Positions 3,358 to 39,425 of a DNA stretch of 64,000 nucleotides are shown here, piece after piece. A program made the position numbers and the translations under genes. Position 1 is the stretch's first letter. Every line of letters starts with the position of its first letter. The notes under the pieces are model-generated. The model had not been told where the DNA came from. It worked only from the letters and a program-made list of their open reading frames with translations, and did no database searches. This DNA comes from Pyropia yezoensis (Eukaryota; Rhodophyta; Bangiophyceae; Bangiales; Bangiaceae): assembly GCA_009829735.1 (NCBI GenBank), contig CM020618.1, positions 22,987,346 to 23,051,345 on the forward strand, read 5' to 3'.

Positions 3358-3826
3358 TGTGGCAGTATTGACCCCCAGGTAGGGGGGCAACACGTGCCAT
3401 GCATGGGGCGGCAGGCCACTAGCCTGATCCGTTCCTCCCCCTGCATTTGGGTCCATATTCCCTAAGTTTGGGATAGTTAGCTTAGTAGTAAATCCAACTT
3501 GGATTTGAGGGTTTTCTGCATTTATCGTCTTGAATTTTCGTGTGGCCCGGTGGGCAGGTGCTGGGGTGGGAGATTCTGAGTGGCGAGATTCTGAGTGGAC
3601 CCTGGGGGGATAAGGGGAGGGACAGCGGGGCTTGGCCCTGCGTCCCCGTCCCGACCAAGAAACTGTTGGACCACACACCATCCTCTTGTTTGTCCGTGGG
3701 GGGTTTGCCCCACAACAGGGACAGAGTGTGTGCGACTTGCACTTCTTCCGGTTCCTCCGACACGGGAGGCAGCCCTAGCACACCGCCCCAACTTGGGTGC
3801 CGTGTGTGCTTGTGGTTTTTGCCACA
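3358..3826 (+). repeat. 5' LTR of element A
   Basis: Starts TGTGGCAG and ends TTTTTGCCACA, giving 7-base terminal inverted repeats TGTGGCA/TGCCACA. Same length as the 3' LTR and about 99.4% identical by eye. Confidence 0.95.
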
Positions 3827-3846: not shown

Positions 3847-3945
3847 CAGAGGTAAACTTTACCTCCGGGTGCACCCGGGTGTAGGGGGCCCTCTGTCTCA
3901 GAGGAACGGTGGTCTTGGACCGTGTCATACGGATCGTCAGCCAAC

Positions 3946-8800: not shown

Positions 8801-9872
8801 CGTGACCGAGGAGGGCAACCAGTACCTCCTGGTCATCTGTGACCGCTTCTCGAAACTTACGCGAGCGATCCCACTGGCAGAGATCACGGCCATGTCGGTC
8901 GTGTCAGCCTTCCTAGATCACTGGGTTGCCGCGTATGGCATCCCAGATAGTACACTATCGGACAATGGACCGCAATTTGCGTCTGTACTGTTTCAGGGAG
9001 TGCTGGATATGTTGGGAGTTAAGGCAAAGTATGCCACCCCCTACCACCCACAAACTAATGGGCAGGTGGAGCGCTTCAACAAAACTATTGTTAGGCAGCT
9101 ACGCCACTATGTGAGTGAGCACGTAAAGACGTGGGACCAATACATTTCTATCCTTACTACTGCCTACAATTCGCAGGTTCACTCATCTACAGGGGAAGTA
9201 CCCCTCGCTTTTGTGACCCCCCGTCGCGTGCGGTCTATTGCCGTGCGGCGGTCGCTCCCAACTAGGGAGGATGGTGGCAGTACGCCTACTCCTACTGAGA
9301 GCAAGGCGGAGTTCGCCGCTAGGCTTGAAAACCTCATCCCTAAAGTCAGGGCTGAGATGGACAAAGCACAAAAGCGCTACAAGCGTACCTTTGACAAAAA
9401 GGTGCGCAATGCTAAACATGTCCCCGAGCAGGGTGACTGGGTGCTGGTACACTCGCACACCCCAACTGGGGGTAAGCTGGTATTCCAGACGAAGGGACCG
9501 TACCAGGTCCTTCGTACTGATGGGCGGCGCTTCACCATCGAAAGTGACGATGGGGTCCGCACAGTGAACGGACAGGACGTGGTCAAAGTTGCACCACCGC
9601 CTGCAGGAGACCCAGCTTGGGCGCGTGCGTTGGAATCGTGGCGCCTCCCCTCACTGCCTGCGGCCAAACAGGGCCCACAGGAGTTCGTGTTCGATAAGTT
9701 CATCGACCACGGATGGGATGAAGACACTGACCGCCTCATGTTGAGGGTGCGTTGGTTTGGCTACAAAGCCAAGGATGATACGTGGGAGTATGTGGAGGAC
9801 CTTCCCGCTGAGAAGGTCCGGGCGTACTGTGCCCGGAATGAGATAGACCCTAACAGCCCTCCCTTAACGTGA
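5889..9872 (+). CDS. pol: Pol polyprotein of element A
   Basis: A 1327-residue frame. Aspartic protease with LDTGSGAS near residue 80; reverse transcriptase with YLDDI near 523; RNase H beginning near 670 (LDVDASYDQLG); integrase with an HHCC zinc region near 895-940 and the DDE core (MDILGPL near 964, LSDNGPQ near 1023, GQVERFN near 1059). A C-terminal chromodomain-like segment (about 1264-1320, with RVRWFGYKAKDDTWEYVEDL) places it among chromoviruses. Domain order PR-RT-RH-IN is that of Ty3/gypsy. The frame looks whole. Confidence 0.95.
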   Translation: MTVGAGRPKLTTAASAKWARRTNQPCRILRRPKGVRPPRVGLPKNVNPRRVIAVLTGENFQVAGRVQLAPGRACCTRIVLDTGSGASLIRKSLLPKEVKLQRWRSKADHMIDINGGVLPIVGAVTLPTRLGTHEVDVTYGVVENISVPLLLGTPDVVTQVPLICGPEYWVKLMNGETIPILGKGKSVAPVTVSQSKPVCSVREGFTATLRLARKVTLSPNSVAHVDVVTDFTGNGLVHPHPRLARKHQVHVALGTMDSKAGVPWRIQVMNLSPTPKYFKSGAKFGYIDQHEGPVVAVTLNAGASSDPKSGKEKHQTKSAASPRPHVNMEGVPPRLRVQVERLLDQYHKLWNGQLGLMRATQHRIELKPGAPPIRQQPYRGGPRSRALVKEQVARMEALDVIEASNAEWASPVVIVPKVDGTPRFCIDYRKLNESTVKDSYPLPRMDDCLDSLGEANVFSTLDCNAGYWQIPIAPEDRHKTTFTCHCGTYQCKRLPFGLCNAPATFQRAMDMILAGVRWQICLVYLDDIIVFPRSPEEHIGHLGQVFKLLADAGVSLKASKCHLFTQEVEYLGHVVHPGRLSVNEKNLRAIRKAQYPRTQTQMRSFLGMCNVYRRFTKGFAKVAKPLNELVSSTLPKNLPPPSRVEQESFETLRDLLLKPPILAIPRLGGHYILDVDASYDQLGCVLLQQQPDKEYLPVGYFSKGLNSAEKNYGVTELKGLAVVWAVTSLRHYLEGEKFLIRCDHRALQFIFKTDCTNTRLNRWRVRLAPFNFDIEYRPGRQHALADGLSRVPTEGLDTNPVDEDIPIVGVVTRSGQALNPEAPGNKKYLPLSLDEVVKAQAEDPFCKSQRDILDTVVETRFFLGDDGLLMRRGVFQGTEQLVVPASLKDSILEREHNAPTGGRLGSSKLYQTLRTRYYWPSMVVDIYSWVAACTSCAQNRLMEWRPSTAMLLFPAKEPFAALAMDILGPLPVTEEGNQYLLVICDRFSKLTRAIPLAEITAMSVVSAFLDHWVAAYGIPDSTLSDNGPQFASVLFQGVLDMLGVKAKYATPYHPQTNGQVERFNKTIVRQLRHYVSEHVKTWDQYISILTTAYNSQVHSSTGEVPLAFVTPRRVRSIAVRRSLPTREDGGSTPTPTESKAEFAARLENLIPKVRAEMDKAQKRYKRTFDKKVRNAKHVPEQGDWVLVHSHTPTGGKLVFQTKGPYQVLRTDGRRFTIESDDGVRTVNGQDVVKVAPPPAGDPAWARALESWRLPSLPAAKQGPQEFVFDKFIDHGWDEDTDRLMLRVRWFGYKAKDDTWEYVEDLPAEKVRAYCARNEIDPNSPPLT

Positions 9873-9983: not shown

Positions 9984-11271
9984 CTAGGCACGCATGCTAG
10001 ACTCTCCCACTCCACTGCCCTCGCCCTCACGTGGAGGCGAGCGGCGAGACCCACGCCGATAACGGTCTCCACTTGTTGGAGGGGGCGGCGGCTCCAAGTC
10101 GGAACCGTCGCGTCCCTCACGGTCGCGCAAGTGGCGCCGACCGTGGCCACTCTTCTGCCTGGTCTTGCGCGCAAGTTTGCGACGCAGACGCTGGACAGAC
10201 TCCGTCTCCGACGGGGTAGAGGACTCCGAAACGGAGTAAGACAACTCGTCTTCCGATACGGAAGGAGAGCGCCGCGAGTGTCGGCGACGACGGCGAGGAG
10301 GCGAATATGCCCGGCTCGCGCGACGTTTGCCACGCCCAAGTGGGGCTGGCTGGGGCATAATAGCCCCAATGCGAGCCAACTCGGCTGTCATAAACTCCGC
10401 CACCGACTCGCAACTCGCGGTCGCCACTGCAGTACGAACGCGCTCCTCAAGTTGAGGAGTCTCGGAACTCTGTAGGGTTGCGGTCGACGCGGCCAACCAG
10501 GAAATGGTGCGCACCAACGTGGTGATCATCATCTCTGAGGTCAGAGGCGTGGGCGGCAACACAAACTTGGGGTATACCGTCAGGAGGGTGGCCCCCAAGT
10601 TGGGGGACACCGGGGTGGAAGACTCCACGGCCACGCTGATCGGGATGTTCCCGTGAGGTTGGAAAGGAACAGGAGGAAGCGGAGGGGCCCGCCGAGGTGG
10701 CGGTACCCGGGTGTAACTGCGACCCCGACTTGGGGCCCCCGCAGTGGGTTGAGTCATATGGTCATCATAGGACGGCACGGCCATAACTATGGGCTTGTCC
10801 GGGGGTGGCGCAGTGTGGCGATCCACCCCCGGGGCATACGGGTAGTCCCCGATGCCCAACCCCTCTCGTAGGACCACACGGCCGTCGTGAAGTTCACGAG
10901 CGACCCACACGAACTGGCGAAGTGCGCCATCGTCCTTGGGCCCACGAGTGGGGCGGCGCAACTTGTGCTCAATGCTCTCCCACTCGATAAACTTATGGAG
11001 CCGGAGCATCTCCTCAAGTAGAGTGAGTTGTCCTGATGAGCACCCCTCAGCAACTAGCTGAGGGGTGAGCTGTTCCAAACCTTGGAGGAGCCGGAGGGGG
11101 AGATGCCAGAGCATCCCCCGCCGCTGAACACAGGACACCCAGGTCGACATGACCTCGAGGAGCCACTGGGTGGCCAACATGGCCCACACCAGGTGATCAG
11201 GGGCAGCCGTCAACATGACGGAGCCGAAGTGGTCAAGCAACCGTGGCAACAACGCCGGGAACCCGTAGGGG
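9984..11271 (-). CDS. Antisense ORF of element A, 3' part
   Basis: Open on the strand opposite gag-pol, between the pol stop and the 3' LTR; the two genes converge with about 110 bases between stops. The piece runs into the LTR of element B at 11271. It encodes a helical region (HFGSV near 11230, QRRGMLWHLP near 11125, LEEMLRLHKFIEWE near 11000), Pro-rich linkers and a basic Arg/Ser-rich tail (PPRRRRRHSRRS, near 10290) that looks like a nuclear-localisation or RNA-binding signal. The central motifs match the antisense ORF of element B. No known family was recognised. Confidence 0.75.
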
Positions 11272-11634
11272 TGTAGCACAATAGGAATCCGTCGCACGTC
11301 CACTCTCAGGGAACACTCACCAAGGGGGATCGGCACCAACGTCACCGGGAGGCCAAGGTTGCTGTCCTTGGAGCGCAAGCCACGGGACCAAGATGGGAGC
11401 CCAAATGGGAGGGGTTTGTTGTTCTACCTTGGCCGGCGGTGGATTCGCCACCGGCCCCCTCGTTATAAACCCTCGGAGACACTACTAACTACCCTCCACC
11501 CCAAGATGCAAGTCCCTCTGGTCATACGTAACTTATAGATACCGTGACCAGTACGAACTATCAAATTGAAAGTTAAGGGTTAGAAGTAGCCCCCCTGATA
11601 TTAGGGTCACAATACGGACAACCATATTGCTACA
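11272..11634 (-). repeat. 3' LTR of element B
   Basis: Starts TGTAGCA and ends TGCTACA in the + reading, 7-base terminal inverted repeats. Same length as the partner at 25163-25525. Confidence 0.95.
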
Positions 11635-12217
11635 TATCCCCCCCTTAGATTCGGCCCGTCCTCGGGTCGAGTTGCATTCGGGGTACCGAATGTAAGTGGG
11701 TCGCGTGACCGTTTACCCGTCGGGTGGGGCTTTGCGCCCCGTCGCGACAGACACCCCTTTTCGAGGTTGTCTCAGGGGGGTGCCCCCCTTTGCGTGGTAC
11801 ACACACACGATCCGTTTTCCGGACCGTTAAATTCCCGATGCGGGTTGCTGTTCACGCCCCCCCTTTCCGAGGGGTGGTGCAAGCGGATCCGCCACCAGGT
11901 GCCTGGTGGTAGGGGGGCCCCTCTCGTGTGGACGATTGAGTGGGGGGCGGGGGCTGCCCGCGTTGCGTGGGGGCGGTTGGGGGTGACCCCCTTTGCTTAC
12001 CCCGTGTGTGGGGGTGGCCCCGTCCCGCCCAGGTGCCTGGGTGGAGCGCGGTCGTAGCCCCGTGGGGCGCGGGTCGACCCGCGTGCCTGCGGCGCTTCTC
12101 GTGGCCGTTTGTGGTCATAAGCGCGGGTGCCCGCGCTTCCCTGGCTCGTCCCGGTTAACCCACCGTACCGGGTCGTAGCCGTCGACGGCTTGTGCAGGGG
12201 ACTCCGCACCCGTTATC

Positions 12218-14624
12218 ATGTCCTATCCCCAGGTGCTTGAAGAGGAGGAAGACCTCCTGATCGGGGAGGAGATGGAGGACGACGCGCCTGTCGGTCCCGA
12301 CGCCGCGCGTTACGGGGTGAGCTCGTCTGACGACGACGGGCCTGCGGTGTCCGTCCGTCTATCGGCCGGAGGACTGTCGTCCGTGTGCAGCGGCACGACG
12401 GTGCCGTCGGCCGGAGGTCAACCCGGCGGTCAACCGCGCGTGGCGGCTTCTACCCCCTCTCTGCCGGCTGCCCGGATGGAGCCTGGTGCCGGTGCCGGCT
12501 CACCGCAGGTACCTCAAGATGGTCCGCCCTGCGGCGGAGGTGGCGACCCGCAGCCGACTCCGGCTGGTCAAGGTGGTCCGGGGGTCCGGGCCGGTGACTC
12601 CTCGAGGCGGTCCCGACGTTGACGCGGGTGGTGGTGGCGGTGCGACACCCGGTGCGGTGGGTCAAGACGGTGCGGGTGTCCGCACGGCCGGGGCTCCGGC
12701 TCCGGAGGCTGTCCAAGTGCCTTCCACTTCCGAGGCGGGGGCTACGCCGACGGGTGGTGCCGGCGCCGGTACCATACCCGCGGTGCCGCGGGTGTCGAGC
12801 GGTCAAGACGCTCCTTCTCCCATGGCGGTTGACACCGGGAGTTACTCCGGGCGGGCGCCCGCCCTTCTTCTTCCTCCTCGGCCTCGTCCATCTCCGACGT
12901 CGGCCCCTCTGCCGGTGGTGCGTCCCCCGGCGCCCCCGATTCTTCCTGGTCCTGCCCGGGTTGCCCCGTTGGGTGGCGGCGTCGCCGTGGCGGCGGGTCA
13001 ACCCGCCATGTCGGTGTCCGACTTGGTGGCTCGGGTTCGAGGCCTCACGGTGCAAGAGTCGATGGAGTCCGATGGGCGTATGCGGGTGGACTTCCACCTG
13101 GTGCATCCCCGTGGAGAATCCTCCGGCGCGTCAAGGTGGACCCGTGCTGGGAGCGGGAGTTGGTGCGGCTGGTCAACCAGCCGAACGCGGTCCGGGTGGA
13201 ACACCATTGGATCCTGAGTCAGCCGGACGACCGGCATGCGCAGCTCTGGCGCACCCCGGGTGGGACGGGGTGAGGTCTACCTCGACCCCAACTTCGGGGT
13301 CTGCGACTTGATTGCCCCCCGCGTTGCCGCGGGAGATTGACTACCCGGCTAGTGCTCGGGGGATTGCGGCGGCGGCGGAGCCGGTTGCGTTTGGGGAGAC
13401 GGTGAGCCCGTACGGTCGGTATCCCGACTTTGACTACTACCCGGGGGTACCCCCGTATCTGTCGTTGACGGCTCCCTACCCGCCCATGGCGGGGTTGAAA
13501 GTCGGCGTCGAGTGGCGACGTAAACCATGGTGTCATGGCCGATGCGTTCCGCACGGATATAACGTGTGCGTTGCAGACCGGCAACGGTCGTGCTCCGGTA
13601 TACACTCCCCGTGCGCCCGCCGCTATGGCAGGAGGGGTGGGAACCCGCCCCTGCTTTCCGGTTTGACACCGGCTCCTGCCTCCGATACTTCGGGAGTGTG
13701 TTGGCCTCCCGGCCGGTCCACCCGTTGCAGGGTACCTTCACCCTTGAGGTTACCCTCGGGCAGGCTTCATCCTTCTTGCTGTCCGTCCGCCGGCAGGGTC
13801 GTCTGTTTCATCTTCCGACGGGTGTCCGTCGGCACATCGCGCAGTTGGGCGTGGATCTGATAGCTGCCAAGACCGGGTTGGCCCGGGAGTTCGAAGCCCT
13901 GCTGGCTGTTCACGATGCCGTGAACTGGGCTGGGGTGTTGGCCCTTCCCCCGTACCGGGACCCGCAGGCTGGGGCTTCCCCCTTGCCTCGTCACTCGTTG
14001 CGTGTCCGGCGTACTCAGCCGGGTGAGCCTAGTTGCCATGGGTGGGCGTCCACCGAGGCCGTTCCTGACCTGGGTATTCCCATGGTTATCCATGACCCTC
14101 TTCAGGTCCTTGCTCCGTGGTTCGGTAACCCGATGCCGGCGGCGGTTGGCCGTCGTCCCCGAGAGTGGGGCTCTGTGGGTGGGGAGCGTGAGGTGTCCCG
14201 TCGTCGGGCGGAGTACCGCCGTGGTTTACGGTGGAGCCCCTTCGGTAGGGTCCTACCGGCCTCGTGTCAAGTGCCACCGGCTCCGGTGGTAGCCGTGTCG
14301 GCTCCTGTGGCTCTTCTGGCTGCGCCAGTGTCACCTCCCCCCCTGTCCTACATGACGGGGGTCCCCGTCTCTGGTATGAGGGCGTTGACGCCCTTGTTAC
14401 CCGCGCAATGCGTGGGGATCTCTCTGTTAGCTGGGGGGATATCCCCCCAGGTGCTGCGCTGGTTGGGTCCGCGCGTTGCTTCGGTGGCGTGCTGGACCGC
14501 CTCCAGAAAGCTCTGGAGGACGTGGAGGCTGGCCGCAGCACCCTCGTCCAGCTATGCACCGAGGTAACTCGGGTGGTCGACCGTCGTGACGTTGCCGACC
14601 GTGGAGCACGGAGGTCTACGCGCT
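12218..14624 (+). CDS. Antisense ORF of element B, first assembled copy (broken, cut by gap)
   Basis: Starts at an ATG after about 580 non-coding bases next to the LTR and opens with an acidic segment (VLEEEEDLLIGEEMEDD). It is the same sequence as 15656-18100 and ends in the N run. The frame is broken at a few points in this copy. Compared with the second copy these look like length changes in short homopolymers, as expected from raw long-read error. Confidence 0.6.
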
Positions 14625-15124
14625 NNNNNNNNNNNNNNNNNNNNNNNNNNNNNNNNNNNNNNNNNNNNNNNNNNNNNNNNNNNNNNNNNNNNNNNNNNNN
14701 NNNNNNNNNNNNNNNNNNNNNNNNNNNNNNNNNNNNNNNNNNNNNNNNNNNNNNNNNNNNNNNNNNNNNNNNNNNNNNNNNNNNNNNNNNNNNNNNNNNN
14801 NNNNNNNNNNNNNNNNNNNNNNNNNNNNNNNNNNNNNNNNNNNNNNNNNNNNNNNNNNNNNNNNNNNNNNNNNNNNNNNNNNNNNNNNNNNNNNNNNNNN
14901 NNNNNNNNNNNNNNNNNNNNNNNNNNNNNNNNNNNNNNNNNNNNNNNNNNNNNNNNNNNNNNNNNNNNNNNNNNNNNNNNNNNNNNNNNNNNNNNNNNNN
15001 NNNNNNNNNNNNNNNNNNNNNNNNNNNNNNNNNNNNNNNNNNNNNNNNNNNNNNNNNNNNNNNNNNNNNNNNNNNNNNNNNNNNNNNNNNNNNNNNNNNN
15101 NNNNNNNNNNNNNNNNNNNNNNNN
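14625..15124. other. assembly gap, 500 N
   Basis: Exactly 500 N, the conventional filler for a gap of unknown size. The sequence before it (11684-14624) and after it (15125-about 18055) is the same, which points to two overlapping contig ends that were not merged. Confidence 0.97.
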
Positions 15125-15655
15125 TACCGAATGTAAGTGGGTCGCGTGACCGTTTACCCGTCGGGTGGGGCTTTGCGCCCCGTCGCGACAGACACCCCTT
15201 TTCGAGGTTGTCTCAGGGGGTGCCCCCCTTTGCGTGGTACACACACACGATCCGTTTTCCGGACCGTTAAATTTCCCGATGCGGGTTGCTGTTCACGCCC
15301 CCCCTTTCCGAGGGGTGGTGCAAGCGGATCCGCCACCAGGTGCCTGGTGGTAGGGGGCCCTCTCGTGTGGACGATTGAGTGGGGGCGGGGGCTGCCCGCG
15401 TTGCGTGGGGGCGGTTGGGGGTGACCCCCTTTGCTTACCCCGTGTGTGGGGTGGCCCCGTCCCGCCCAGGTGCCTGGGTGGAGCGCGGTCGTAGCCCCGT
15501 GGGGCGCGGGTCGACCCGCGTGCCTGCGGCGCTTCTTCGTGGCCGTTTGTGGTCATAAGCGCGGGTGCCCGCGCTTCCCTGGCTCGTCCCGGTTAACCCA
15601 CCGTACCGGGTCGTAGCCGTCGACGGCTTGTGCAGGGGACTCCGCACCCGTTATC
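15125..15655 (+). promoter_or_regulatory. 5' non-coding leader of the antisense ORF
   Basis: Repeat of 11684-12217. It is rich in short inverted repeats of the type cgtggggcgcg and gcgcgggtgcccgcgc. This stretch lies between the 3' LTR and the antisense ORF and would have to hold its promoter. I see no clear TATA box. Confidence 0.35.
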
Positions 15656-18100
15656 ATGTCCTATCCCCAGGTGCTTGAAGAGGAGGAAGACCTCCTGATC
15701 GGGGAGGAGATGGAGGACGACGCGCCTGTCGGTCCCGACGCCGCGCGTTACGGGGTGAGCTCGTCTGACGACGACGGGCCTGCGGTGTCCGTCCGTCTAT
15801 CGGCCGGAGGACTGTCGTCCGTGTGCAGCGGCACGACGGTGCCGTCGGCCGGAGGTCAACCCGGCGGTCAACCGCGCGTGGCGGCTTCTACCCCCTCTCT
15901 GCCGGCTGCCCGGATGGAGCCTGGTGCCGGTGCCGGCTCACCGCAGGTACCTCAAGATGGTCCGCCCTGCGGCGGAGGTGGCGACCCGCAGCCGACTCCG
16001 GCTGGTCAAGGTGGTCCGGGGGTCCGGGCGGTGACTCCTCGAGGCGGTCCCGACGTTGACGCGGGTGGTGGTGCGGTGCGACACCCGGTGCGGTGGGTCA
16101 AGACGGTGCGGGTGTCCGCACGGCCGGGGCTCCGGCTCCGGAGGCTGTCCAAGTGCCTTCCACTTCCGAGGCGGGGGCTACGCCGACGGGTGGTGCCGGC
16201 GCCGGTACCATACCCGCGGTGCCGCGGGTGTCGAGCGGTCAAGACGCTCCTTCTCCATGGCGGTTGACACCGGGAGTTACTCCGGGCGGGCGCCCGCCCT
16301 TCTTCTTCCTCCTCGCCTCGTCCATCTCCGACGTCGGCCCCTCTGCCGGTGGTGCGTCCCCCGGCGCCCCCGATTCTTCCTGGTCCTGCCCGGGTTGCCC
16401 CGTTGGGTGGCGGCGTCGCCGTGGCGGCGGGTCAACCCGCCATGTCGGTGTCCGACTTGGTGGCTCGGGTTCGAGGCCTCACGGTGCAAGAGTCGATGGA
16501 GTCCGATGGGCGTATGCGGGTGGACTTCCACCTGGTGCATCCCCGTGGAGAATCCTCCCGGCGCGTCAAGGTGGACCCGTGCTGGGAGCGGGAGTTGGTG
16601 CGGCTGGTCAACCAGCCGAACGCGGTCCGGGTGGAACACCATTGGATCCTGAGTCAGCCGGACGACCGGCATGCGCAGCTCTGGCGCACCCGGGTGGGAC
16701 GGGGTGAGGTCTACCTCGACCCCAACTTCGGGGTCTGCGACTTGATTGCCCCCGCGTTGCCGCGGGAGATTGACTACCCCGGCTAGTGCTCGGGGATTGC
16801 GGCGGCGGCGGAGCCGGTTGCGTTTGGGGAGACGGTGAGCCGTACCGGTCGGTATCCCGACTTTGACTACTACCCGGGGGTACCCCCGTATCTGTCGTTG
16901 ACGGCTCCCTACCCGCCCATGGCGGGGTTGAAGTCGGCGTCGAGTTGGCGACGTAACCATGGTGTCATGGCCGATGCGTTCCGCACGGATATAACGTGTG
17001 CGTTGCAGACCGGCAACGGTCGTGCTCCGGTATACACTCCCGTGCGCCCGCCGCTATGGCAGGAGGGGTGGGAACCCGCCCCTGCTTTCCGGTTTGACAC
17101 CGGCTCCTGCCTCCGATACTTCGGGAGTGTGTTGGCCTCCCGGCCGGTCCACCCGTTGCAGGGTACCTTCACCCTTGAGGTTACCCTCGGGCAGGCTTCA
17201 TCCTTCTTGCTGTCCGTCCGCCGGCAGGGTCGTCTGTTTCATCTTCCGACGGGTGTCCGTCGGCACATCGCGCAGTTGGGCGTGGATCTGATAGCTGCCA
17301 AGACCGGGTTGGCCCGGGAGTTCGAAGCCCTGCTGGCTGTTCACGATGCCGTGAACTGGGCTGGGGTGTTGGCCCTTCCCCCGTACCGGGACCCGCAGGC
17401 TGGGGCTTCCCCCTTGCCTCGTCACTCGTTGCGTGTCCGGCGTACTCAGCCGGGTGAGCCTAGTTGCCATGGGTGGGCGTCCACCGAGGCCGTTCCTGAC
17501 CTGGGTATTCCCATGGTTATCCATGACCCTCTTCAGGTCCTTGCTCCGTGGTTCGGTAACCCGATGCCGGCGGCGGTTGGCCGTCGTCCCCGAGAGTGGG
17601 GCTCTGTGGGTGGGGAGCGTGAGGTGTCCCGTCGTCGGGCGGAGTACCGCCGTGGTTACGGTGGAGCCCCTTCGGTAGGGTCCTACCGGGCCTCGTGTCA
17701 AGTGCCACCGGCTCCGGTGGTAGCCGTGTCGGCTCCTGTGGCTCTTCTGGCTGCGCCAGTGTCACCTCCCGCCCCTGTCCTACATGACGGGGGTCCCCGT
17801 CTCTGGTATGAGGGCGTTGACGCCCTTGTTACCCGCGCAATGCGTGGGGATCTCTCTGTTAGCTGGGGGGATATCCCCCCAGGTGCTGCGCTGGTTGGGT
17901 CCGCGCGTTGCTTCGGTGGCGTGCTGGACCGCCTCCAGAAAGCTCTGGAGGACGTGGAGGCTGGCCGCAGCACCCTCGTCCAGCTATGCACCGAGGTAAC
18001 TCGGGTGGTCGACCGTCGTGACGTTGCCGACCGGTGGAGCACGGAGGTCTACGCGCTTACGCGTGAGTGGCCTCCCTCGGGCAGTGGGTCTACCCACTGA
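15656..18100 (+). CDS. Antisense ORF of element B, second assembled copy
   Basis: Runs opposite to gag-pol of B and converges on the pol stop (18580). Parts: acidic N-terminus, Gly/Pro/Ala-rich linker, then a globular region with VPPYLSLTAPYPPM (near 16880), CLRYFGSVLAS (near 17110), VRRQGRLFHLP (near 17215) and EFEALLAVHDAVNWAGVL (near 17320-17370), and a helical C-terminus ending in WPPSGSGSTH. The motifs are collinear with the antisense ORF of A. The last open stretch is 16835-18100. A few breaks are present upstream, likely partly sequencing error. Function unknown. Confidence 0.65.
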
Positions 18101-18579
18101 GGAGTGCTATTGTTTGTGCGGGAGAGGGCCCCGGCAACCCTTATGGTAGCCGGGTAGTAGTGAGTATAAACTCATCCCCCGCTGGGGGCATTGCTTGCCT
18201 CTGTTTGCTGCCCTGGGGAGTACCCCTTCTGGCTCAGTGGTGCCTTGCCTCCCGTCCAACTTCTTCCGGTTGGTTCATGCTTGGGGAGGTTATCCTCCCT
18301 CACTTTGTGTCTTGGATTTGGGAGGTCATCCTCCCGTGTAAGCCCCCTAGTTACTTCGATATTATCGAGGTTAGCCTTTACCTTTAAGTTAACTTATTAA
18401 GGTTCAGGTTTTACTTAGTTACCTAAGCTTAGCTCTACTTAGTTACCTAAGCTTGGTTCGACTTAGAAACCTAAGTCTGATTTGACTTAGAAACCTAAGT
18501 CTGCCGTAACCATGTCACACCCTACTTAGTAGGTATAAGCCTCACCCCCCAACAGCCGATGTCGGTGTCGGTTGGGTTG
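18101..18579. other. convergent intergenic stretch of element B
   Basis: Lies between the stop of the antisense ORF and the stop of pol. It is more AT-rich than its surroundings and holds the four palindromic 24-base repeats. It would have to supply transcript ends for both strands. Confidence 0.6.
18412..18507. repeat. four tandem 24-base palindromic repeats
   Basis: Units at 18412-18435, 18436-18459, 18460-18483 and 18484-18507. Each contains CTTAG, a short spacer and CTAAG (ACTTAGTTACCTAAGCT or ACTTAGAAACCTAAGTCT). Two sub-types follow each other two by two. A further CTACTTAGTAGG palindrome lies near 18522. Each unit can fold on either strand. Confidence 0.9.
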
Positions 18580-21500
18580 TTACAGTAGGCGTCGTCGCCT
18601 CATGTAAGGCATGAGTAGTTGGCGGGGTATATTCGCCGCCTGTTCCCAGGTGGGTGAGTCGTATCCGACCCACATAACCTTGACGTACCAGGGTCCTGGT
18701 ATGTCCGGGTCGGTGTGTCCGACCACGCTCTCTACTTGGTATGGAATCCCATCCGGTCCCACCGGGTCATCCGACCGGTGGGTTGTAAGAGCTTCATGTA
18801 GCAACCCAGCCGGTACCGGCTGAGGCTGTTCCGGCTTCGGAGCAGGTGTGACATCATTCATACTGATGCGTTGGATCTCCGTATCGGAGTGTAAGATAAC
18901 AGAGTGGTCATCTCTGTGGAGGATCTGGTACGGTCCCTTGACCGGTTGCATAAGCTTGTTCCCTCGGAACTTCTGGTGTCTGATATAGACCCAGTCACCT
19001 GTTACCAGGGTTGCGTTGCGCACCCGTAGTCGGGCGTCGAAGTTCTTCTTATACCGAAGTTGTGTTCTGTCAAGGGCACCCTTGAGCTTAGGAATCATCC
19101 ACGATAGCTTGGCCAACCAAGCTAGGTGGATGCGTTCGGCGGGTCGGCCCGTCGGTGTATCATACCGAGTGCACCTGCCGGGTGGCAGCGTCAGGTTACC
19201 GACGCCTAGTGGCATGACCCACTCCAGCGGAGCAATGTTTGTGCTCCGATGTGGCCTGGCATTGTATGCCAGGGTGAGTACGGACAGAAGCCTGTCCCAA
19301 GTGTTCGTGTGCTCGGCCACGTAGCACTGTAGCATCTTTACGATGGTGCGGTTGAACCGCTCCACCTGCCCGTTGGACTGCGGGTGGTAGTCGGATGCCC
19401 GACGTGGTTCGATACCGAACATGCCCAGGACCTTAGTGCAGAATGCTGACGTAAGGTTTGCTCCGTTATCGGAGAGGAGTTGCTTCATGACTCCGTATGC
19501 ACTGATCCAGTGGTCAACCACTGCGTTCATAATCGTGTATGCCGTATCATTCGGGATGGCTGCCGCTCGTGACAGCTTGGTGAATCGGTCAGACATGACC
19601 AGGATGTACCTGTTCCCTTCTTCCGTTACCGGAAGTGGCCCGAGTATGTCGATAGCGACTTGCTCGTTGGGCCCATCGGGTGGGAATAGCTTCATGGCAG
19701 ACGCCTGCCTATGTAGACTCATGCGGTTACGCGCACAGGGGTGGCATCCCCTTACGTGGTCGACCACGTCGACGGCCATTGCTGGCCAGTAGAAGAACCT
19801 TCGCATTGCTGCGAACATACGTGAACCCCCCGGGTGTCCGGCTGTAGGGTTCTCATGTTCTCGTTCCATGACGGCTTGCCGTAAGGACACGGGAACCACG
19901 ACTTGATGTCGTCCATCGGCGGGTGCCCGCCGGTATATGAGTCCGTCTTCGTTCTCGGAGAAGATGCCGGCCGTACCGGCCAGGAGGTTAGCACGATGAC
20001 GTCTACAGTCATCGTCGTTGGCCTGTGCCTCGCGGAAGTCCGCGAGGGTCAATGGGCACGCAAGGTGTGCCATGGTATGGTCAACCATACCCTGGGTAGC
20101 ATTACCCACCATGCACACCGGTACTACCGGGATGTCCTCGTCCACCGGGCGGGTATCCCCGCTCGGGGTGTCGAGTCGAGACAACGCGTCTCCGAGGTGG
20201 TGGGTTGACCCAGCCTTATACACCGTGCGGTAGTCGTGCTCGGCCATCTTCAGCCTCCATCGGGCTAGCCTCCCATGGCTATCGGAATCCTTGTCACCAA
20301 GGTTGAGGAGCCATCGTAGGGGTTCGTGGTCGGACCTCACGATGAACCTGGAGCCCTCCAGGTATGGACGGAGCAGTTGCACTGCCCATATAACTCCGAG
20401 GCATTCACGCTCGGTGGCACTATAGTTCCGCTCAGCCGGGTTGAGTGTCCGGCTGAAGTACCCTACCGGACGTAGGTCCGGGATAACGTTATCGGTACCG
20501 ATCAACGTCTCTCCCTGTAACAGGGTGCATCCCACTTGTGTATCACACGCATCGACATCGATGACGAAGGTACCCCGTCTATGCGGTAACGCAAGGACGG
20601 GTGGGGCTAGTAGGGCTCGCTTCAGCGACTCGAATGCCTCCTCTTCGCTAGGCGAAGGGGGTTGGAGTACCTTGGGTAAGGTACTGCTCGTAAGAACCGT
20701 TAACGGTTTAGCTATCCGAGCGAAGTCCTTGACGAACCGTCGGTATACATTGCACATTCCCAGGAAGCTCTTGAGCTGCGTCTGGGTGTTAGGGAACCGG
20801 GCATCCCGGAGTGCCCGGGTATTGGCTTCGAGTACCCCTAGTTTACCAGGGGTTATCTGGTGGCCCAGATATTCGACCGTCTGTTGGAAGAAGGCGCACT
20901 TCTTCAGACGCAGGGTTACCCCGGCGTTCCTCAAGAGGGTGAGTACCTCGTCAACATGTTGTACATGGTCATCCATGTTACGCGAGAAGACGATGACGTC
21001 ATCGAGGTACACTAGGCAGTTACGCCACTTCACCCCAGACAGTATGATGTCGATAGCCCGCTGGAATGTAGCGGGGGCGTTGGACAATCCGAAGGGCATC
21101 CTTAGGAACTCGTACACTCCACTGTGACAGACGAATGCCGTCTTGGGGATATCCTCGTCCGCCACCGGGATCTGCCAGTATCCGGCATTGCAGTCGATGG
21201 TGGTAAACACCGTAGCCTCCCCCAGGGAGTCGATGCATTCATCCATCCTTGGTAAAGGGTATGAGTCCTTCTTGGTAACCAAGTTGAGGCGTCGATAATC
21301 GATGCAAAACCGAGGGGTTTGATCCTTCTTCGGCACAATAACGACTGGGGCACCCCATTCCGACATCGAAGGTCGGATCACCTTAGCTTCACTCATCCTC
21401 TTCACTTCTCCATCAACGATCTCTCGTTGCATAGGTCCCGCTCGGTGCGGTTGTGAGCGGGCGGGTCGTGCGCCTGGTACCAGGTCTATACGATGTTGGG

Positions 21501-22746
21501 TTGCCCCAATGGTCCCCAAGGCCCCGCCTGTCCACATAACGTCATGCTTTCTTAGCATCCGTCGTACCCCTTCGGCTACCGAAGGGGGAAGGTGGTCGAG
21601 GTCAGCCTCGGCCAGTGCCTTCAAGGCCTCTTGGTCCTTTGGCGGCAGGTCCGCCGGAGCCGCCGATGGGTTAGGCTTCCCGTCATCGGGTTGCTGTCGC
21701 TCGGTGGTCTCGGCGACCGCCAGTACTTCAAGTGGTTCCACTTGACCTTCCTTATCAGGGGTAAGGATATCTCCTTCGTAGAGTTCGGCAATCCCGAGGA
21801 TAGTTCCCTTCGGGAGGGTGACTGCCTTACGGCGGTAGTTCGCCATCACTAGGAGGGACGACCCTCCTGCTGGGAGGTCTATGAGACCGTTGGCCATGGT
21901 CAACCCATGGCGCTTGTACGTCCGTAGGTTGGACTGGACTCTGCAGATGCCTGCGAGGTCGCAGTTAACCGGGAGGACTGTCTCTGACAACGGCTCAAAG
22001 CGAGTTCGCTTGGCCAACCGAAGTGTCTTCGGCTCGACGCTTGCGTACACCTCAGCCACGTTAACGTGGCTTCCTTGTAGCGTCAGGTCCCTGACGATAG
22101 CCGTGTGTCCTCGCTTCGTCCCGTCGGCTTCTTGAAGCTCGACGGTCCTCCGGCCTGGCCGGATTGCATCAACGTGAACGTTGATGAAGGTGCACCCCAG
22201 TATGCAGGGCACCGATAGCGTTTCACATACCAGGAAGTCAACTTCCGTGGTGAGATCCCCGATGGTAACCTGCAGCGACATCGCTGCGGTCGTACGAATG
22301 AGTCGACCATTCGCGTCCTTGATGGTGGGTCCCCGAGTCACTCTGACTCGTGGAAGCCACTTGTCCGGGAGGGTATCCTTCCGGATAAGGTTGGGTCCAG
22401 CCCCTGTGTCCAGTACAGGGTAGTACGATCGTGTCGACTGGGGGTCAACCCCCAGTGTGGCTGATACCTTGAAGTTCTCCAAGGTAAACAACACATGTCC
22501 TACACCGATATCCGGTGTAGCTCGGGCATCCTGAACAGGGCCCTTGTCTGGTTCAACGTGAAGGGGCTTCCCGTCCTCTCCTCCCAACCTCGGAGGTTGG
22601 TCATCAATCCCCTGACGCCGTGTCGTCGGGGCCGGAAGGTGTACCCGGGGGTTGATGCGGCGTCGGCTCAACCGCGCTCTCCGTGGGGCTTTCCCCGCGG
22701 TACTCCGGGGTGGCTTGCTTGGGTGACCCCAGCGCCCCCCGGTCAT
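18580..22746 (-). CDS. pol: Pol polyprotein of element B
   Basis: A 1388-residue frame from ATG at 22746. Protease with VLDTGAGPNLI near residue 115; RT with YLDDV near 578; RNase H with IDVDACDTQVG; integrase with HHCC zinc region (HPGGSRMFAAMRRFFYW and CHPCARNR), DILGPLPVTEEGN, LLSDNGAN and NGQVERFN for the DDE triad; a C-terminal chromodomain-like end with KVMWVGYDSPTWEQ. It is the same lineage type as pol of A but clearly diverged. An 8-base spacer separates it from gag. The frame looks whole. Confidence 0.95.
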   Translation of the reverse strand: MTGGRWGHPSKPPRSTAGKAPRRARLSRRRINPRVHLPAPTTRRQGIDDQPPRLGGEDGKPLHVEPDKGPVQDARATPDIGVGHVLFTLENFKVSATLGVDPQSTRSYYPVLDTGAGPNLIRKDTLPDKWLPRVRVTRGPTIKDANGRLIRTTAAMSLQVTIGDLTTEVDFLVCETLSVPCILGCTFINVHVDAIRPGRRTVELQEADGTKRGHTAIVRDLTLQGSHVNVAEVYASVEPKTLRLAKRTRFEPLSETVLPVNCDLAGICRVQSNLRTYKRHGLTMANGLIDLPAGGSSLLVMANYRRKAVTLPKGTILGIAELYEGDILTPDKEGQVEPLEVLAVAETTERQQPDDGKPNPSAAPADLPPKDQEALKALAEADLDHLPPSVAEGVRRMLRKHDVMWTGGALGTIGATQHRIDLVPGARPARSQPHRAGPMQREIVDGEVKRMSEAKVIRPSMSEWGAPVVIVPKKDQTPRFCIDYRRLNLVTKKDSYPLPRMDECIDSLGEATVFTTIDCNAGYWQIPVADEDIPKTAFVCHSGVYEFLRMPFGLSNAPATFQRAIDIILSGVKWRNCLVYLDDVIVFSRNMDDHVQHVDEVLTLLRNAGVTLRLKKCAFFQQTVEYLGHQITPGKLGVLEANTRALRDARFPNTQTQLKSFLGMCNVYRRFVKDFARIAKPLTVLTSSTLPKVLQPPSPSEEEAFESLKRALLAPPVLALPHRRGTFVIDVDACDTQVGCTLLQGETLIGTDNVIPDLRPVGYFSRTLNPAERNYSATERECLGVIWAVQLLRPYLEGSRFIVRSDHEPLRWLLNLGDKDSDSHGRLARWRLKMAEHDYRTVYKAGSTHHLGDALSRLDTPSGDTRPVDEDIPVVPVCMVGNATQGMVDHTMAHLACPLTLADFREAQANDDDCRRHRANLLAGTAGIFSENEDGLIYRRAPADGRHQVVVPVSLRQAVMEREHENPTAGHPGGSRMFAAMRRFFYWPAMAVDVVDHVRGCHPCARNRMSLHRQASAMKLFPPDGPNEQVAIDILGPLPVTEEGNRYILVMSDRFTKLSRAAAIPNDTAYTIMNAVVDHWISAYGVMKQLLSDNGANLTSAFCTKVLGMFGIEPRRASDYHPQSNGQVERFNRTIVKMLQCYVAEHTNTWDRLLSVLTLAYNARPHRSTNIAPLEWVMPLGVGNLTLPPGRCTRYDTPTGRPAERIHLAWLAKLSWMIPKLKGALDRTQLRYKKNFDARLRVRNATLVTGDWVYIRHQKFRGNKLMQPVKGPYQILHRDDHSVILHSDTEIQRISMNDVTPAPKPEQPQPVPAGLLHEALTTHRSDDPVGPDGIPYQVESVVGHTDPDIPGPWYVKVMWVGYDSPTWEQAANIPRQLLMPYMRRRRLL

Positions 22747-22754
22747 CCTTCCTC

Positions 22755-24938
22755 TTACTCGTTTCCCGCCCTTGGTAGGGTGCTGTCCGCCGGGACATCC
22801 GGCTGAGGAGGTGCCCCCTCGACGGCCAGTACTCCACCTGGAGCTGGCTGCCTACCCGGTGCGGGTCCGGGTGCTCGGGGGGGATACCCCCCGGTGGATG
22901 CCTTGCGTTGCGCCGCTGCCCGCCGAGACTCCTCGGGGATGAGTGGGCAGGAAGACACCCAGTGCTGGGGATCCCCACACAACATACATCCGGACGTGCC
23001 GGTCCCCCCTTGAGGTCGCATCGGGGTAGCCCCGTAGCTACGGTTGCCTCCCTCGGGCGCCCGAGTGCCTGCTCCCTGGTAGGCCTTGGGTCCTTGGGTC
23101 AACCGGAACATGGACTCCCCCAACCGGTTGGGTCGGCCCGCAATCTGCGGGGGTGCCTCCGTGCGCACCGCCCATGTTGGCAAGGGTTGGTGAGGGTTAC
23201 CCGTCACCGGGGAGTACCCCGTAGTCCGCACATACGGGACGCGCCGTCCCGTTCCTTCGTTGACCTGGAACTGGGTTCCAGCCGGGGCGATGTACGCTAC
23301 CGTACCATGTTCATCAATCACCGGCGTCGCCGGTAGCAACAGGTGGCCCTGTTGGTCGACTAGAGGGTCACCCTCACCAATAGGGGCATGTTCGGTCGCC
23401 ACCAGTACTGGTGCGGCCTTACGTTCCACCTTCTCTTGCCTCGGTACCGGGGTAAGACTGGGCTTGCCTCCCTCACCCTTGGGCTTCGGGGCCAAGGCAC
23501 ACTCCGGGTGTAGAACCCGGTAGGCGTCCCCTAGGGACTTGCACATATGCATCAGTCGACTGAAGTTCGTCCGTGCCGTGTTGGCGCCCCGTGCGGATAT
23601 CCGCACGTAGTCGGGTACTCCTGCGAACAGGATGGCCCGTAGCTCCCCTTCTCCGAGGAGCTTCCCCAGCTCGTAGTCGAGCTCTTGGATCCGGCGTCCA
23701 AACATCTCCTCATCCTCCCAGGACTGGGCGGTGGCAGTGCGAAGGGCCCGATAGTGGTCCTCGCACTTGTCCTCACTGAGGTAGCTGCTCAGCAGCTCCT
23801 TCAATATCCCACGGTAATCCATGGGGGTGGCCGCGACCCTCATTCCCGGCATCGGGGATGCCTGGCGAAGAATGCCTCGCACCCGTTCATCAACAAAGAA
23901 CGGGAGGATCTCCAGGGCCAGCCCCTCGTTAACGAGCGCCTTGTCTGCGGCTGCCTTGAAGCTGGTCAAGAAGCCGATGACTGCCAACGGGCGTCCGTTC
24001 GGCCCCCCGAACATAGGGACTCCCTTCATAAGGGTCTGCATAGAGCGGATCGCCCGATGCGACGTATTACGCATCGATTCCGATACGGTGGTAGAGCGGT
24101 CCTCCAAACGATAACGTTCCGGAGTAAGAACCGGCCGGAAGACCTCGTTGACGATCTCCGTGTCAGCGTCCTGGATATCCAGTCGCTTAGCCAGTTGATG
24201 AGCGAACTCATCGGACTCCATCCGCTTCAGTAGGCTCGCAGTTACCTGCGCGGTCATAGCTTCCACCACTGAAGATGGTACTTCAGGCGTCGGCACCTCG
24301 GGAACCCGAGTTGCCGGGCCTCCTTCGTCGTGGGGGTACTGCGAGAGGGTACCCCCTCCCCCCCTAACCGACTCTCCCCCGGCGTACGTATCTGCCGGGT
24401 CGTGTCCGCGGAGTCCGCTTCGGGTGCTCCGAGCGTATCGCTCCGTGTGACTCCGTTCCAACTCTGCCGACGAGTCGGACCCATACCCCATTGTGTCCGG
24501 GGGTTGTCCAGGAGTAGCAACACCGGGGTTGACCCTGGTGGACTCCGAAAGTAGTCCGGCCGGTTCGAACCGTACCGGTGTGGGAGGAACACGACGGGGT
24601 CCCGTCGTGTGCCGTGTTGACATCAACACTGCCATTGCGTCCTCCGTCCGATCTTGACGGGCGTCGAGCCCGGAAAACCGGGCCTCGATGCGGGCCAATG
24701 ATGCCATCAGGGAATCCCCTGGTGAAGGAGGCGGCGGAGTGAGGTCGGTCGACGACAGTTGAGGCGGGCCCCCGCCTCCTGCCGTCCGAGCCGTGCCAAA
24801 CGTCGATCCGGCACAGGAAAGCATTGGCGTCTCAATGTTATCGATCGGGTTCCCGATCCCGGTTCCCGTAGTCACCTCCGGGGTCGGCGTCGACGCCGAT
24901 CCGTCATCTTGAACGTTCCCCGTCTCTTGGGTAGACAT
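22755..24938 (-). CDS. gag: Gag polyprotein of element B
   Basis: A 727-residue frame from ATG at 24938 (an in-frame GTG lies two codons before it). Disordered Ser/Thr/Pro-rich N-terminus, a helical gag domain (about residues 270-480), and one CCHC knuckle (CMLCGDPQHWVSSC near residue 650) followed by a Pro/Ala/Gly-rich tail. It sits immediately upstream of pol on the same strand. The frame looks whole. Confidence 0.93.
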   Translation of the reverse strand: MSTQETGNVQDDGSASTPTPEVTTGTGIGNPIDNIETPMLSCAGSTFGTARTAGGGGPPQLSSTDLTPPPPSPGDSLMASLARIEARFSGLDARQDRTEDAMAVLMSTRHTTGPRRVPPTPVRFEPAGLLSESTRVNPGVATPGQPPDTMGYGSDSSAELERSHTERYARSTRSGLRGHDPADTYAGGESVRGGGGTLSQYPHDEGGPATRVPEVPTPEVPSSVVEAMTAQVTASLLKRMESDEFAHQLAKRLDIQDADTEIVNEVFRPVLTPERYRLEDRSTTVSESMRNTSHRAIRSMQTLMKGVPMFGGPNGRPLAVIGFLTSFKAAADKALVNEGLALEILPFFVDERVRGILRQASPMPGMRVAATPMDYRGILKELLSSYLSEDKCEDHYRALRTATAQSWEDEEMFGRRIQELDYELGKLLGEGELRAILFAGVPDYVRISARGANTARTNFSRLMHMCKSLGDAYRVLHPECALAPKPKGEGGKPSLTPVPRQEKVERKAAPVLVATEHAPIGEGDPLVDQQGHLLLPATPVIDEHGTVAYIAPAGTQFQVNEGTGRRVPYVRTTGYSPVTGNPHQPLPTWAVRTEAPPQIAGRPNRLGESMFRLTQGPKAYQGAGTRAPEGGNRSYGATPMRPQGGTGTSGCMLCGDPQHWVSSCPLIPEESRRAAAQRKASTGGYPPRAPGPAPGRQPAPGGVLAVEGAPPQPDVPADSTLPRAGNE

Positions 24939-25142
24939 GGTCACAATCAGTCAACCGACGTATCAATCACCACGAACAAGAGAGCGAGGGGGTAGATTGG
25001 GGAGAGTACAGTAGATCACAGTCAAAGGTAAAAACTCAACACAATCGATCAGGTCGCAACACCACGAGTACAAGAAAAGGACCGGATCCCTATCCGTGTG
25101 CCAGGGCCGAAGACGGCGTCACCACAAGGGTGACGGAAACCC

Positions 25143-25161
25143 GTCCCCTGCTGCTCCACCA
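25143..25161 (-). promoter_or_regulatory. primer-binding site of element B
   Basis: On the minus strand reads TGGTGGAGCAGCAGGGGAC, one base after the LTR. The first 18 bases are identical to the site of element A. Confidence 0.88.
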
Positions 25162-25162
25162 A

Positions 25163-25525
25163 TGTAGCACAATAGGAATCCGTCGCACGTCCACTCTCAG
25201 GGAACACTCACCAAGGGGGATCGGCACCAACGTCACCGGGAGGCCAAGGTTGCTGTCCTTGAAGCGCAAGCCACGGGACCAAGATGGGAGCCCAAATGGG
25301 AGGGGTTTGTTGTTCTACCTTGGCCGGCGGTGGATTCGCCACCGGCCCCCTCGTTATAAACCCTCGGAGACACTACTAACTACCCTCCTCCCCAAGATGC
25401 AAGTCCCTCTGGTCATACGTAACTTATAGATACCGTGACCAGTACGAACTATCAAATTGAAAGTTAAGGGTTAGAAGTAGCCCCCCTGATATTAGGGTCA
25501 CAATACGGACAACCATATTGCTACA
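25163..25525 (-). repeat. 5' LTR of element B
   Basis: Same length as 11272-11634, with about 2 differences by eye. Followed on the minus strand by the primer-binding site. Confidence 0.95.
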
Positions 25526-26186
25526 AGGGGACCTCAACTTGAGGCCACCACTCGGGCTTCTTCGGATAGTACTGCTCCTTACTGGCAGCAGACTGTTGAG
25601 GAAACTCAAGTTGAGCCGAGGTCACCAAGTAGGGACCTCGCCGGAAGTCTTTCTCCATCCGCACATCAAAGTGATGAGTGTGCGGATCGGCCTCGTGGAG
25701 GTACGGTGGGCGAGTTGCCACAGCGTCCCACGTGAAGGTCGGCAAGTCGCCGGGACCCGGGATAGTTCCCCCGCGGTCCACCATGGCCTTGGCACGCTGA
25801 ACGTCCTCAACCTCCTCATCGTCCAGGAAGGCAAACTGGTCCGTCCTGAAGCCGGCAGGGAACCCGACCCTACGGGGATACTTCTCCCGTAGGCGGTCCC
25901 ATACCCGGCCCATCGCTGCGCCAAGTCGGCCACAGCGAAGAACAGTCAGCCCCTCCTCATAGAGAGGCCAAGCGGGGTAAAACCACCGCCCCAAGGCCTC
26001 ACGCGGGACAACTTGTCCCGCCTCCGAGGGAGACCCCGCCGTCAACCCAAAGCCGGGTGACGCGGGAGTCCCGTCTCCCGGAGCGATCGCGGAGCCCCCT
26101 CCGGAAGTCCCGGCGGGTGCTGCCCCGTAGGAGGTGTCCTCCATGCGCTCGTCAAAAGAGTCCGTCTCCACTCCCGGAGTCGCCAT
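25526..26186 (-). CDS. Antisense ORF of element A, 5' part
   Basis: Starts at ATG 26186 (frame open further upstream without an ATG) and reads toward element B, whose insertion interrupts it. The N-terminus is Ser/Thr/Pro/Gly-rich with an acidic start (VETDSFDERMEDTSY). A globular part then follows (EALGRWFYPAWPLYEEGL near 25990; RPPYLHEADPHTHH near 25690; FRRGPYLVTSAQLEF near 25630). The PPYL and RR motifs line up with the antisense ORF of element B. It lies between pol of A and the 3' LTR, transcribed against gag-pol if expressed. Confidence 0.75.
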
Positions 26187-26524: not shown

Positions 26525-26993
26525 TGTGGCAGTATTGACCCCCAGGTAGGGGGGCAACACGTGCCATGCAAGGGGCGGCAGGCCACTAGCCTGATCCGTT
26601 CCTCCCCCTGCATTTGGGTCCATATTCCCTAAGTTTGGGATAGTTAGCTTAGTAGTAAATCCAACTTGGATTTGAGGGTTTTCTGCATTTATCGTCTTGA
26701 ATTTTCGTGTGGCCCGGTGGGCAGGTGCTGGGGTGGGAGATTCTGAGTGGCGAGATTCTGAGTGGACCCTGGGGGGATAAGGGGAGGGATAGCGGGGCTT
26801 GGCCCTGCGTCCCCGTCCCGACCAAGAAACTGTTGGACCACACACCATCCTCTTGTTTGTCCGTGGGGGGTTTGCCCCACAACAGGGACAGAGTGTGTGC
26901 GACTTGCACTTCTTCCGGTTCCCCCGACACGGGAGGCAGCCCTAGCACACCGCCCCAACTTGGGTGCCGTGTGTGCTTGTGGTTTTTGCCACA
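26525..26993 (+). repeat. 3' LTR of element A
   Basis: 469 bases, preceded by a purine tract (gaggagaggggag) and followed by the target duplication GACGC. Confidence 0.95.
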
Positions 26994-38600: not shown

Positions 38601-38721
38601 GATGGGGAGGAGGGTGGAAACGGGTGGAGGAGAGGTGTGTGGATCACTGCGAGAAGTGGCGCGCAAAGCACGGTACGTTACGGTCGTGGGGGGGATCCGC
38701 ACCGCTGACCGCCGTGAGAAC

Positions 38722-38730
38722 CTATTTATA
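38722..38730 (-). promoter_or_regulatory. TATA box of the hypothetical gene
   Basis: Reads TATAAATAG on the minus strand, about 122 bases before the start codon at 38600. CCAAT words in sense orientation lie farther upstream (near 38976 gtccaatcac and near 39105 agccaatgag). The same arrangement recurs in the right arm (56729-56737). Confidence 0.65.
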
Positions 38731-39185: not shown

Positions 39186-39425
39186 CTAAAGTACTCTGTT
39201 GGTTGGTGGTCGGGTGGTGGTCCGGCACAGTGGGCTCACGGAACCATGCAGCACCCGCCCGAAGACCGTACAGATGTTGGCGATGAGGGGGATGAACGCA
39301 CCGTGGCTGGTGCCGAGGATTGCCCACCGGGTGATCATAAAAGTTTGGGCGGGGACCGTGGCGAGCCTGTACGTGCTGACCCGAGGGTCCGACAGCGCTA
39401 TGGTCCTTGGCGGGTGAGAGTGCAT
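39186..39425 (-). other. possible gene fragment with a hydrophobic segment
   Basis: A 79-codon frame between the helicase stop and the hypothetical gene's promoter, with a hydrophobic stretch (FMITRWAILGTSHGAFIPLI). It is repeated in the right arm at 56028-56267. It could be a host fragment captured near the Helitron 3' end or a chance frame; the complementary strand is also open. No family recognised. Confidence 0.25.

Follow-up and report, generated by a model that had tools for sequence, protein, structure and literature searches.

Results

The region considered here, referred to as the window, is a stretch of 64,000 nucleotides of contig CM020618.1 of the red alga Pyropia yezoensis, and the genome that was searched with its genes comprises 107 Mb in 11 contigs. 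The window contains two nested Ty3-type long terminal repeat (LTR) elements, A and B, each flanked by target-site duplications; with their LTRs, a gag gene, and a pol gene in which the order is reverse transcriptase (RT), RNase H, and integrase, both have the properties of Ty3/gypsy LTR elements. As the initial annotation of this DNA had proposed, each also carries a long open reading frame (ORF) on the strand opposite gag and pol, between pol and the 3' LTR. This ORF is antisense to pol in all 60 of the A and B loci retrieved from the genome (the window's two included), the 3' LTR beyond it being observed for A and B in the window only, and reading of loci from two further element families, C (L067) and D (L066), places it opposite pol there as well.

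Antisense ORF in genomic copies

The genome gave 98 scored matches to the A antisense protein, 94 of them free of stops in the matched stretch, and 99 to the B protein; the loci retrieved were the best 30 of 98 and the best 30 of 99 by protein score, the window's own included. Among these, 22 of the 30 A loci have an open frame of 724 codons and one a frame of 722 codons, the exact start motif being present in 21 of these 23, and 24 of the 30 B loci keep the frame from the same start as the window copy. In whole copies the gene is a single open frame of 724 codons (A) or 854–920 codons (B, the 920 being truncated where the locus ends). The remaining five frames contain 6–28 stops each in the copies of A and B. 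A chance ORF arising from high GC content was considered and rejected, since none of 1000 dinucleotide shuffles reached the observed length in any of the four families; the longest shuffled frames had 514 (A), 571 (B), 583 (C), and 736 (D) codons, where the observed frames have 724, 854, 849, and 906, respectively, in a test based on a single sequence from each family, the C and D sequences being incomplete at the locus edge. The placement in A and B is that of the aORF-3R class (antisense additional ORF, between pol and the 3' LTR), and the presence in most copies that characterizes this class is seen in the near-whole frames of 23 A loci and 24 B loci, out of the 30 best-scoring ones taken for each family. 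Conservation like that of other element proteins, also typical of the class, is seen in A, where constraint equals that on pol, and is weaker than in pol in B. To judge from these sequence comparisons, the antisense ORF is a real, selected gene of a known general kind.

Selection on the antisense protein

In family C, six pairs drawn from four subfamilies gave ratios of nonsynonymous to synonymous substitution (dN/dS) of 0.12–0.27 by NG86 (0.12–0.29 by YN00), at NG86 dS values of 0.69–1.17. The other five frames of these pairs all contain stops; four of them give dN/dS above 1.2 and one gives 0.26–0.43. Constraint imposed by an overlapping sense gene was also considered and was rejected because the sense frames carry stops. 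For families A and B, variants within the family were counted as synonymous (S) and nonsynonymous (N) and divided into shared variants, present in at least two copies and mostly predating insertion, and singletons, present in one copy. Copies covering 70% or less of the stretch were dropped and codons with two or more differing bases were excluded, the counts over whole genes and pol ends retaining 29 of 30 (A antisense), 29 of 30 (B antisense), 24 of 30 (A pol), and 30 of 30 (B pol) loci, and those by codon range 28 to 30 loci. It should be noted that ranking of copies by protein score lowers the number of nonsynonymous singletons inside the search query.

Shared variants in the whole A antisense gene have a pN/pS of 0.06 (74 S/12 N). 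In codons 60–219, which lie outside the search query, the value is 0.08 for shared variants (23 S/5 N) and 1.47 for singletons (8 S/34 N), and the pol end of the same loci gives 0.08 (33 S/7 N) and 0.63 (54 S/95 N), respectively. The shared variants of the A antisense gene are as constrained as those of pol, and the contrast between shared variants and singletons is as expected of selection on replicating copies, followed by decay after insertion. In B, codons 394–815 are constrained (shared, 16 S/4 N), but these are inside the query used for ranking the copies, and the core codons beyond it number only 104 (shared, 2 S/2 N). The antisense protein is under purifying selection in C and A and more weakly constrained in B. 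The initial annotation had named two outcomes as contrary to its proposal: the lack of a significant profile-profile match between the A and B proteins, or a dN/dS near 1 together with no copies of the ORF in other family members. Neither was observed, since the two profiles match significantly (see below), the protein is constrained in C and A, and the genome holds 98 scored copies for A and 99 for B.

Relationships among the antisense proteins

The antisense proteins of different families are 19–28% identical over their aligned parts, as compared with 59–79% for the RTs of the same elements. The collinear motifs noticed at the outset in the diverged A and B proteins are borne out by profile-profile comparison with hhalign (E 1.3e-5 over 181 columns, PPYL to NWAGV), in which the score of 53.7 is well above the best of 600 block-shuffled partners (28.5). 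HMMER likewise finds B from A with 16.0 bits, against 11.6 for the best of 6003 decoys, and, among 467 segments, gives E values of 6.6e-6 (B to A) and 7.3e-5 (A to B). C and D match each other with an hhalign E of 4.9e-6 and with 73.8 bits over 427 residues when the C profile is used to find D. Between the two pairs, hhalign gives E 1.7e-4 for C and A (score 38.3, against 33.1 for the best of 400 block-shuffled partners) and 3.6e-3 for D and A, and a combined C and D profile, built from one alignment, scores A at 18.0 bits, the best of 4002 decoys reaching 9.5. By these comparisons, C and D are beyond doubt one protein family and the homology of A and B is firm. The joining of the two pairs through A and C is of moderate strength because the score of the C and D profile with A depends on the alignment used, and it is through A alone that B is tied to C and D in these searches.

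Families C and D and relatives in public databases

Further families were sought by reading the 4 kb downstream of five RT matches, two of which, in L067 (family C) and L066 (family D), contain a relative of the antisense protein. Reading of the corresponding regions L065, L068, and L069 revealed no antisense relative, and profile searches of these regions and of L001–L004 gave nothing better than E 0.024. A search of the whole genome with a single C sequence produced 134 matches with E ≤ 0.001, of which many are short pieces, with identities down to 25%; these include D (E 4.7e-6) and rows having the 724-codon frame of A (E 4.3e-5 to 3.5e-4), the last of which overlaps a scored A copy. A separate match, at C2:4488906-4489385, is 27% identical to the C antisense protein, lies in a 674-codon open frame, and is outside the rows assigned to A, B, and D; it may represent a fifth family or a variant of A. 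L069:1238-2779 encodes a gag nearly identical, by eye, to that of element A, just downstream of an unrelated pol in a 1186-codon frame, which suggests adjacent or nested elements.

Public proteins were searched at E ≤ 0.01 with C, D, and A queries, the 8000 candidates sharing most words with the query being scored for C and D. Among the candidates scored, C has 19 matches, consisting of two from Pyropia vietnamensis (MMPV_005735, 51%, and MMPV_006874, 41%), two unplaced sequences at 66–74%, and 15 from jgi and ena contigs at 42–45%, which are probably metagenomes. D has three, two hypothetical proteins of P. yezoensis, of which I4F81_004114 matches at 100%, and one from a jgi contig; A has one, at 97%. 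All of these matches are hypothetical or unnamed proteins.

Carrying lineage

The RTs of A, B, C, and D are 41.5–45% identical to those of L001–L004, and a tree of the eight rows splits the two groups with a support of 100/100. L001 and L004 are followed downstream by L065 and L069, two of the regions where no antisense relative was found. In all four families the tail of pol, near its C terminus, matches the Pfam chromodomain, with 39.5 bits in C, above the cut-off of 25.1, and with 21.8, 21.4, and 13.9 bits in A, D, and B, below it. The initial assignment of A and B to two chromovirus lineages is likely, with a chromodomain-like tail that scores under the cut-off in both. LTR elements have gained a chromodomain more than once, for example Chronos in oomycetes (PMC5348765), and such a tail is therefore not enough by itself to class A and B as chromoviruses. 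A 2012 survey (PMC3350952), whose table lists only expressed sequence tags for this species, reported no retrotransposon chromodomain in it, whereas family C has a chromodomain above the Pfam cut-off. The D pol (L066:2-1120) has, after its chromodomain-like tail, a match to Dam-type DNA N6-adenine methyltransferase (PF05869, 31.8 bits, cut-off 28.1).

Features of the protein and searches for known families

The acidic N terminus described initially for both proteins is present in A and B, where the charge of the first 60 residues is −8 and −11, respectively; it is weaker in C (L073, −4; P0011, −3) and absent from P. vietnamensis P0006 (+1) and from D P0002 (0), which is a gene model that has an additional start. 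The proteins have a conserved core and an arginine-rich basic tail, which is clear in A, D, and P. vietnamensis; the cluster of arginine and lysine residues was reached by 1 (A), 4 (D P0002), and 16 (P. vietnamensis P0006) of 500 shuffles.

Seventeen antisense proteins from all four families gave only weak matches in Pfam at E ≤ 10, none common to two members. A relation to TRP28, a protein of plant elements considered below, was rejected, as PF04195 was absent from these matches. When a single protein from each of the four families was used, NCBIfam gave one chance match and PHROGs nothing, and a search of the PDB by sequence, made with the C and D profile only, gave weak matches to GDNF receptors (E ≥ 0.34) that were taken as chance. 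The antisense proteins appear to belong to no known family in the Pfam, NCBIfam, PHROGs, and PDB searches made.

Organization of the elements in the window

The coordinates of the two elements are given in Table 1. The antisense gene of A is seen in two pieces because B has inserted inside it; the pieces are joined in whole copies, for example at locus L006. In A, 338 bases separate the 3' LTR from the antisense ATG, and A and B have 20 bases in common directly inside the 5' LTR, as would be expected of a common primer-binding site.

Table 1. Features of elements A and B in the window
Feature	Position	Strand	Description
Element A 5' LTR	3358..3826	+	469-bp direct repeat, 99.4% identical to 26525-26993; preceded by GACGC
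Element A gag	3922..5892	+	Open ORF of 656 codons; CCHC-like knuckle (by eye); 4-base overlap with start of pol
Element A pol	5889..9872	+	Pfam RVT_1, RT_RNaseH, Integrase_H2C2, and rve above cut-off; chromodomain-like tail
Element A antisense gene, C-terminal piece	9984..11271	-	Last part of core, with basic tail
Element A antisense gene, N-terminal piece	25526..26186	-	ATG at 26186
Element A 3' LTR	26525..26993	+	99.4% identical to 3358-3826; followed by GACGC; possible seat of antisense promoter
Element B 3' LTR	11272..11634	-	363 bp, 99.4% identical to 25163-25525; AGGGG at 11267-11271 and 25526-25530
Second, incomplete B antisense region	12218..14624	+	Within direct copy 11684-14624 = 15125-18057 (2.9 kb, 99.1%)
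Element B antisense gene	15656..18100	+	Frame-shifted in window copy: ORFs 15656-16267 and 16835-18100
Element B pol	18580..22746	-	Pfam RVT_1, RT_RNaseH, Integrase_H2C2, and rve above cut-off; Chromo 13.9 bits
Element B gag	22755..24944	-	ORF of 729 residues; weak zf-CCHC_2 match (13.3 bits), under its cut-off
Element B 5' LTR	25163..25525	-	99.4% identical to 11272-11634

The antisense ORF of B had been described initially as repeated at 12218–14624. The repeat is present, but the ORF at 15656–18100 is frame-shifted in the window copy and, because the two 2.9-kb direct copies flank a gap of 500 N (14625–15124), the second region is probably an assembly (scaffolding) duplicate. A further B-like piece at 58370–62060 is 98.6% identical to 21836–25525, and beside it 62061–63994 is 82% similar to the B pol on the other strand, indicating more nesting. 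Elsewhere in the window, 37913–44088 and 51366–57552 form a 6.2-kb inverted duplicate (99.6% identical), the arms of which terminate at N gaps (44089–44588 and 57553–57983) and which encodes a 596-residue protein that is PIF1-type helicase-like by eye; it is perhaps a Helitron-like element or an assembly artefact.

Discussion

Antisense genes at this location are known from other LTR elements, as described in PMC11963269 and PMC7264820, on which the following comparisons draw. The Retand elements of flowering plants have an antisense ORF between pol and the 3' LTR, with TRP28 (PF04195) in 97% of clusters; its product is a suspected DNA-binding regulator, and TRP28 is found only in flowering plants (PMC11963269). 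The red-algal elements share this placement but differ in that Retand is a non-chromovirus lineage with TRP28, whereas PF04195 was unmatched in the 17 algal proteins. Grande (gene 23), RIRE2, and PvRetro13 of plants also have antisense ORFs, and the product of Grande gene 23 is nuclear, its expression being driven by an upstream promoter (PMC7264820). The brtn gene of Boty, a fungal element of Botrytis cinerea, is an antisense gene between pol and the 3' LTR (PMC7264820; title of Zhao et al. 2011 cited in PMC8365987). The initial annotation named the plant Tat lineage as having such ORFs; the kind extends outside Tat as well, to Boty (PMC7264820). The red-algal genes are likened to these by placement, having the same position and strand as those of Grande, RIRE2, and PvRetro13, whose hosts are land plants, and the same position as brtn, whose host is a fungus. 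In the human T-lymphotropic viruses (HTLV), which are animal retroviruses and are likened to the algal elements by arrangement, the antisense genes are HBZ and APH-2. The APH-2 protein is nuclear, and the antisense promoter is in the 3' LTR (PMC11963269, PMC7264820). The same sources call the roles of the antisense accessory genes of LTR elements unknown. Titles and abstracts of the literature, as far as searched and with subscription papers mostly outside the search, report no antisense gene in red-algal elements or chromoviruses. As an antisense gene at this place it is of a known kind, whereas its protein family, its host group, and its lineage appear new within the searches made.

The interpretation favored here, to which a probability of roughly 0.55 is assigned, is that a Bangiales lineage of Ty3-type LTR elements carries a third, antisense gene, arranged tail to tail with pol, that would encode a nuclear accessory protein and be expressed from an antisense transcript of its own. 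The transcript would be translated and would have its start within the 3' LTR or the adjoining inner leader; given the 338-base interval between the antisense ATG of A and the 3' LTR, the promoter of this element would be located in the LTR itself, the arrangement of HTLV, or in that leader. The arginine-rich tail that accompanies the core, together with the analogy with Grande gene 23, suggests that the protein would act in the nucleus. There it may be an accessory factor that acts in trans on the expression, RNA traffic, or integration of the element, as is thought for Grande gene 23 and Retand TRP28.

Several observations weigh against this interpretation. In B, shared variants of the whole antisense gene have a pN/pS of 0.35 (22 S/19 N), compared with 0.04 (30 S/3 N) for the pol end, and codons 1–290 are unconstrained (shared, 4 S/13 N). 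The selection on the protein that the initial annotation proposed is borne out in C and A and is weaker in B. The arginine/lysine cluster is not beyond shuffled expectation in B (121 of 500) or in C (L073, 224 of 500; P0011, 210 of 500). In the comparison of profiles, hhalign gave no significant match of B with D (E 0.38) or with C (E 0.42); with another alignment of C and D, the match to A falls to 8.6 bits (E 0.018); a profile of C by itself gives A 7.0 bits and the A profile gives C 7.5 bits, each under the best decoys in HMMER; and B is not found by a profile of A, C, and D, its 2.1 bits also being under the decoys. An AlphaFold2 model from 22 C and D sequences, with a predicted local distance difference test (pLDDT) score of 42.8 and a predicted template modeling (pTM) score of 0.29, is too poor to read and provides no evidence of a fold.

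A narrower version of the accessory factor, which is a possibility of lesser but appreciable weight, is that the protein counters host silencing, in that convergent transcription would produce double-stranded RNA and the protein would suppress silencing by small RNAs or chromatin. The convergent gene order in 60 of 60 loci fits this, and so does the divergence of the antisense proteins (19–28% identity, against 59–79% for the RTs), as expected in an arms race, but fast change would also fit a loosely constrained scaffold, and no known family was matched in the Pfam and PDB searches.

Two other roles are improbable. A structural or envelope-like protein encoded on the other strand might be considered from the location, which matches that of env in retroviruses and of env-like genes in plant elements (PMC7264820); however, env-like genes are on the sense strand and this gene is on the opposite one, both elements in the window already have a gag, and no structural family was matched in Pfam. 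The gene might similarly be a captured host gene carried as cargo, without a role in transposition, which the public matches, being hypothetical or unnamed proteins, would allow. Cargo should decay, whereas the constraint on the A gene equals that on pol, and the gene has been kept in four families and two Pyropia species. Least probable is a role for the antisense RNA itself, with the ORF arising as a side effect of regulatory transcription. Non-coding antisense transcripts are known from Drosophila micropia and others (PMC7264820), but here selection acts at the codon level (dN/dS), only the antisense frame is open, and frames of 724–906 codons were reached in none of 1000 shuffles per sequence.

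The nuclear accessory protein favored here would have a wider meaning, which is put forward tentatively. Red-algal Ty3 elements bearing chromodomains may have evolved, independently of Retand and Boty, an old and fast-changing antisense nuclear protein needed for transposition, which would then be a recurring solution of LTR elements, perhaps directed against host silencing that convergent transcription of the elements themselves elicits. The protein family, for which no known relatives were detected, is present within a single genome in four families of elements, one of which shows constraint as strong as that on pol, alongside about a hundred near-identical copies; this provides a natural test bed for the roles of antisense genes and shows that the arrangement occurs beyond flowering plants and fungi.

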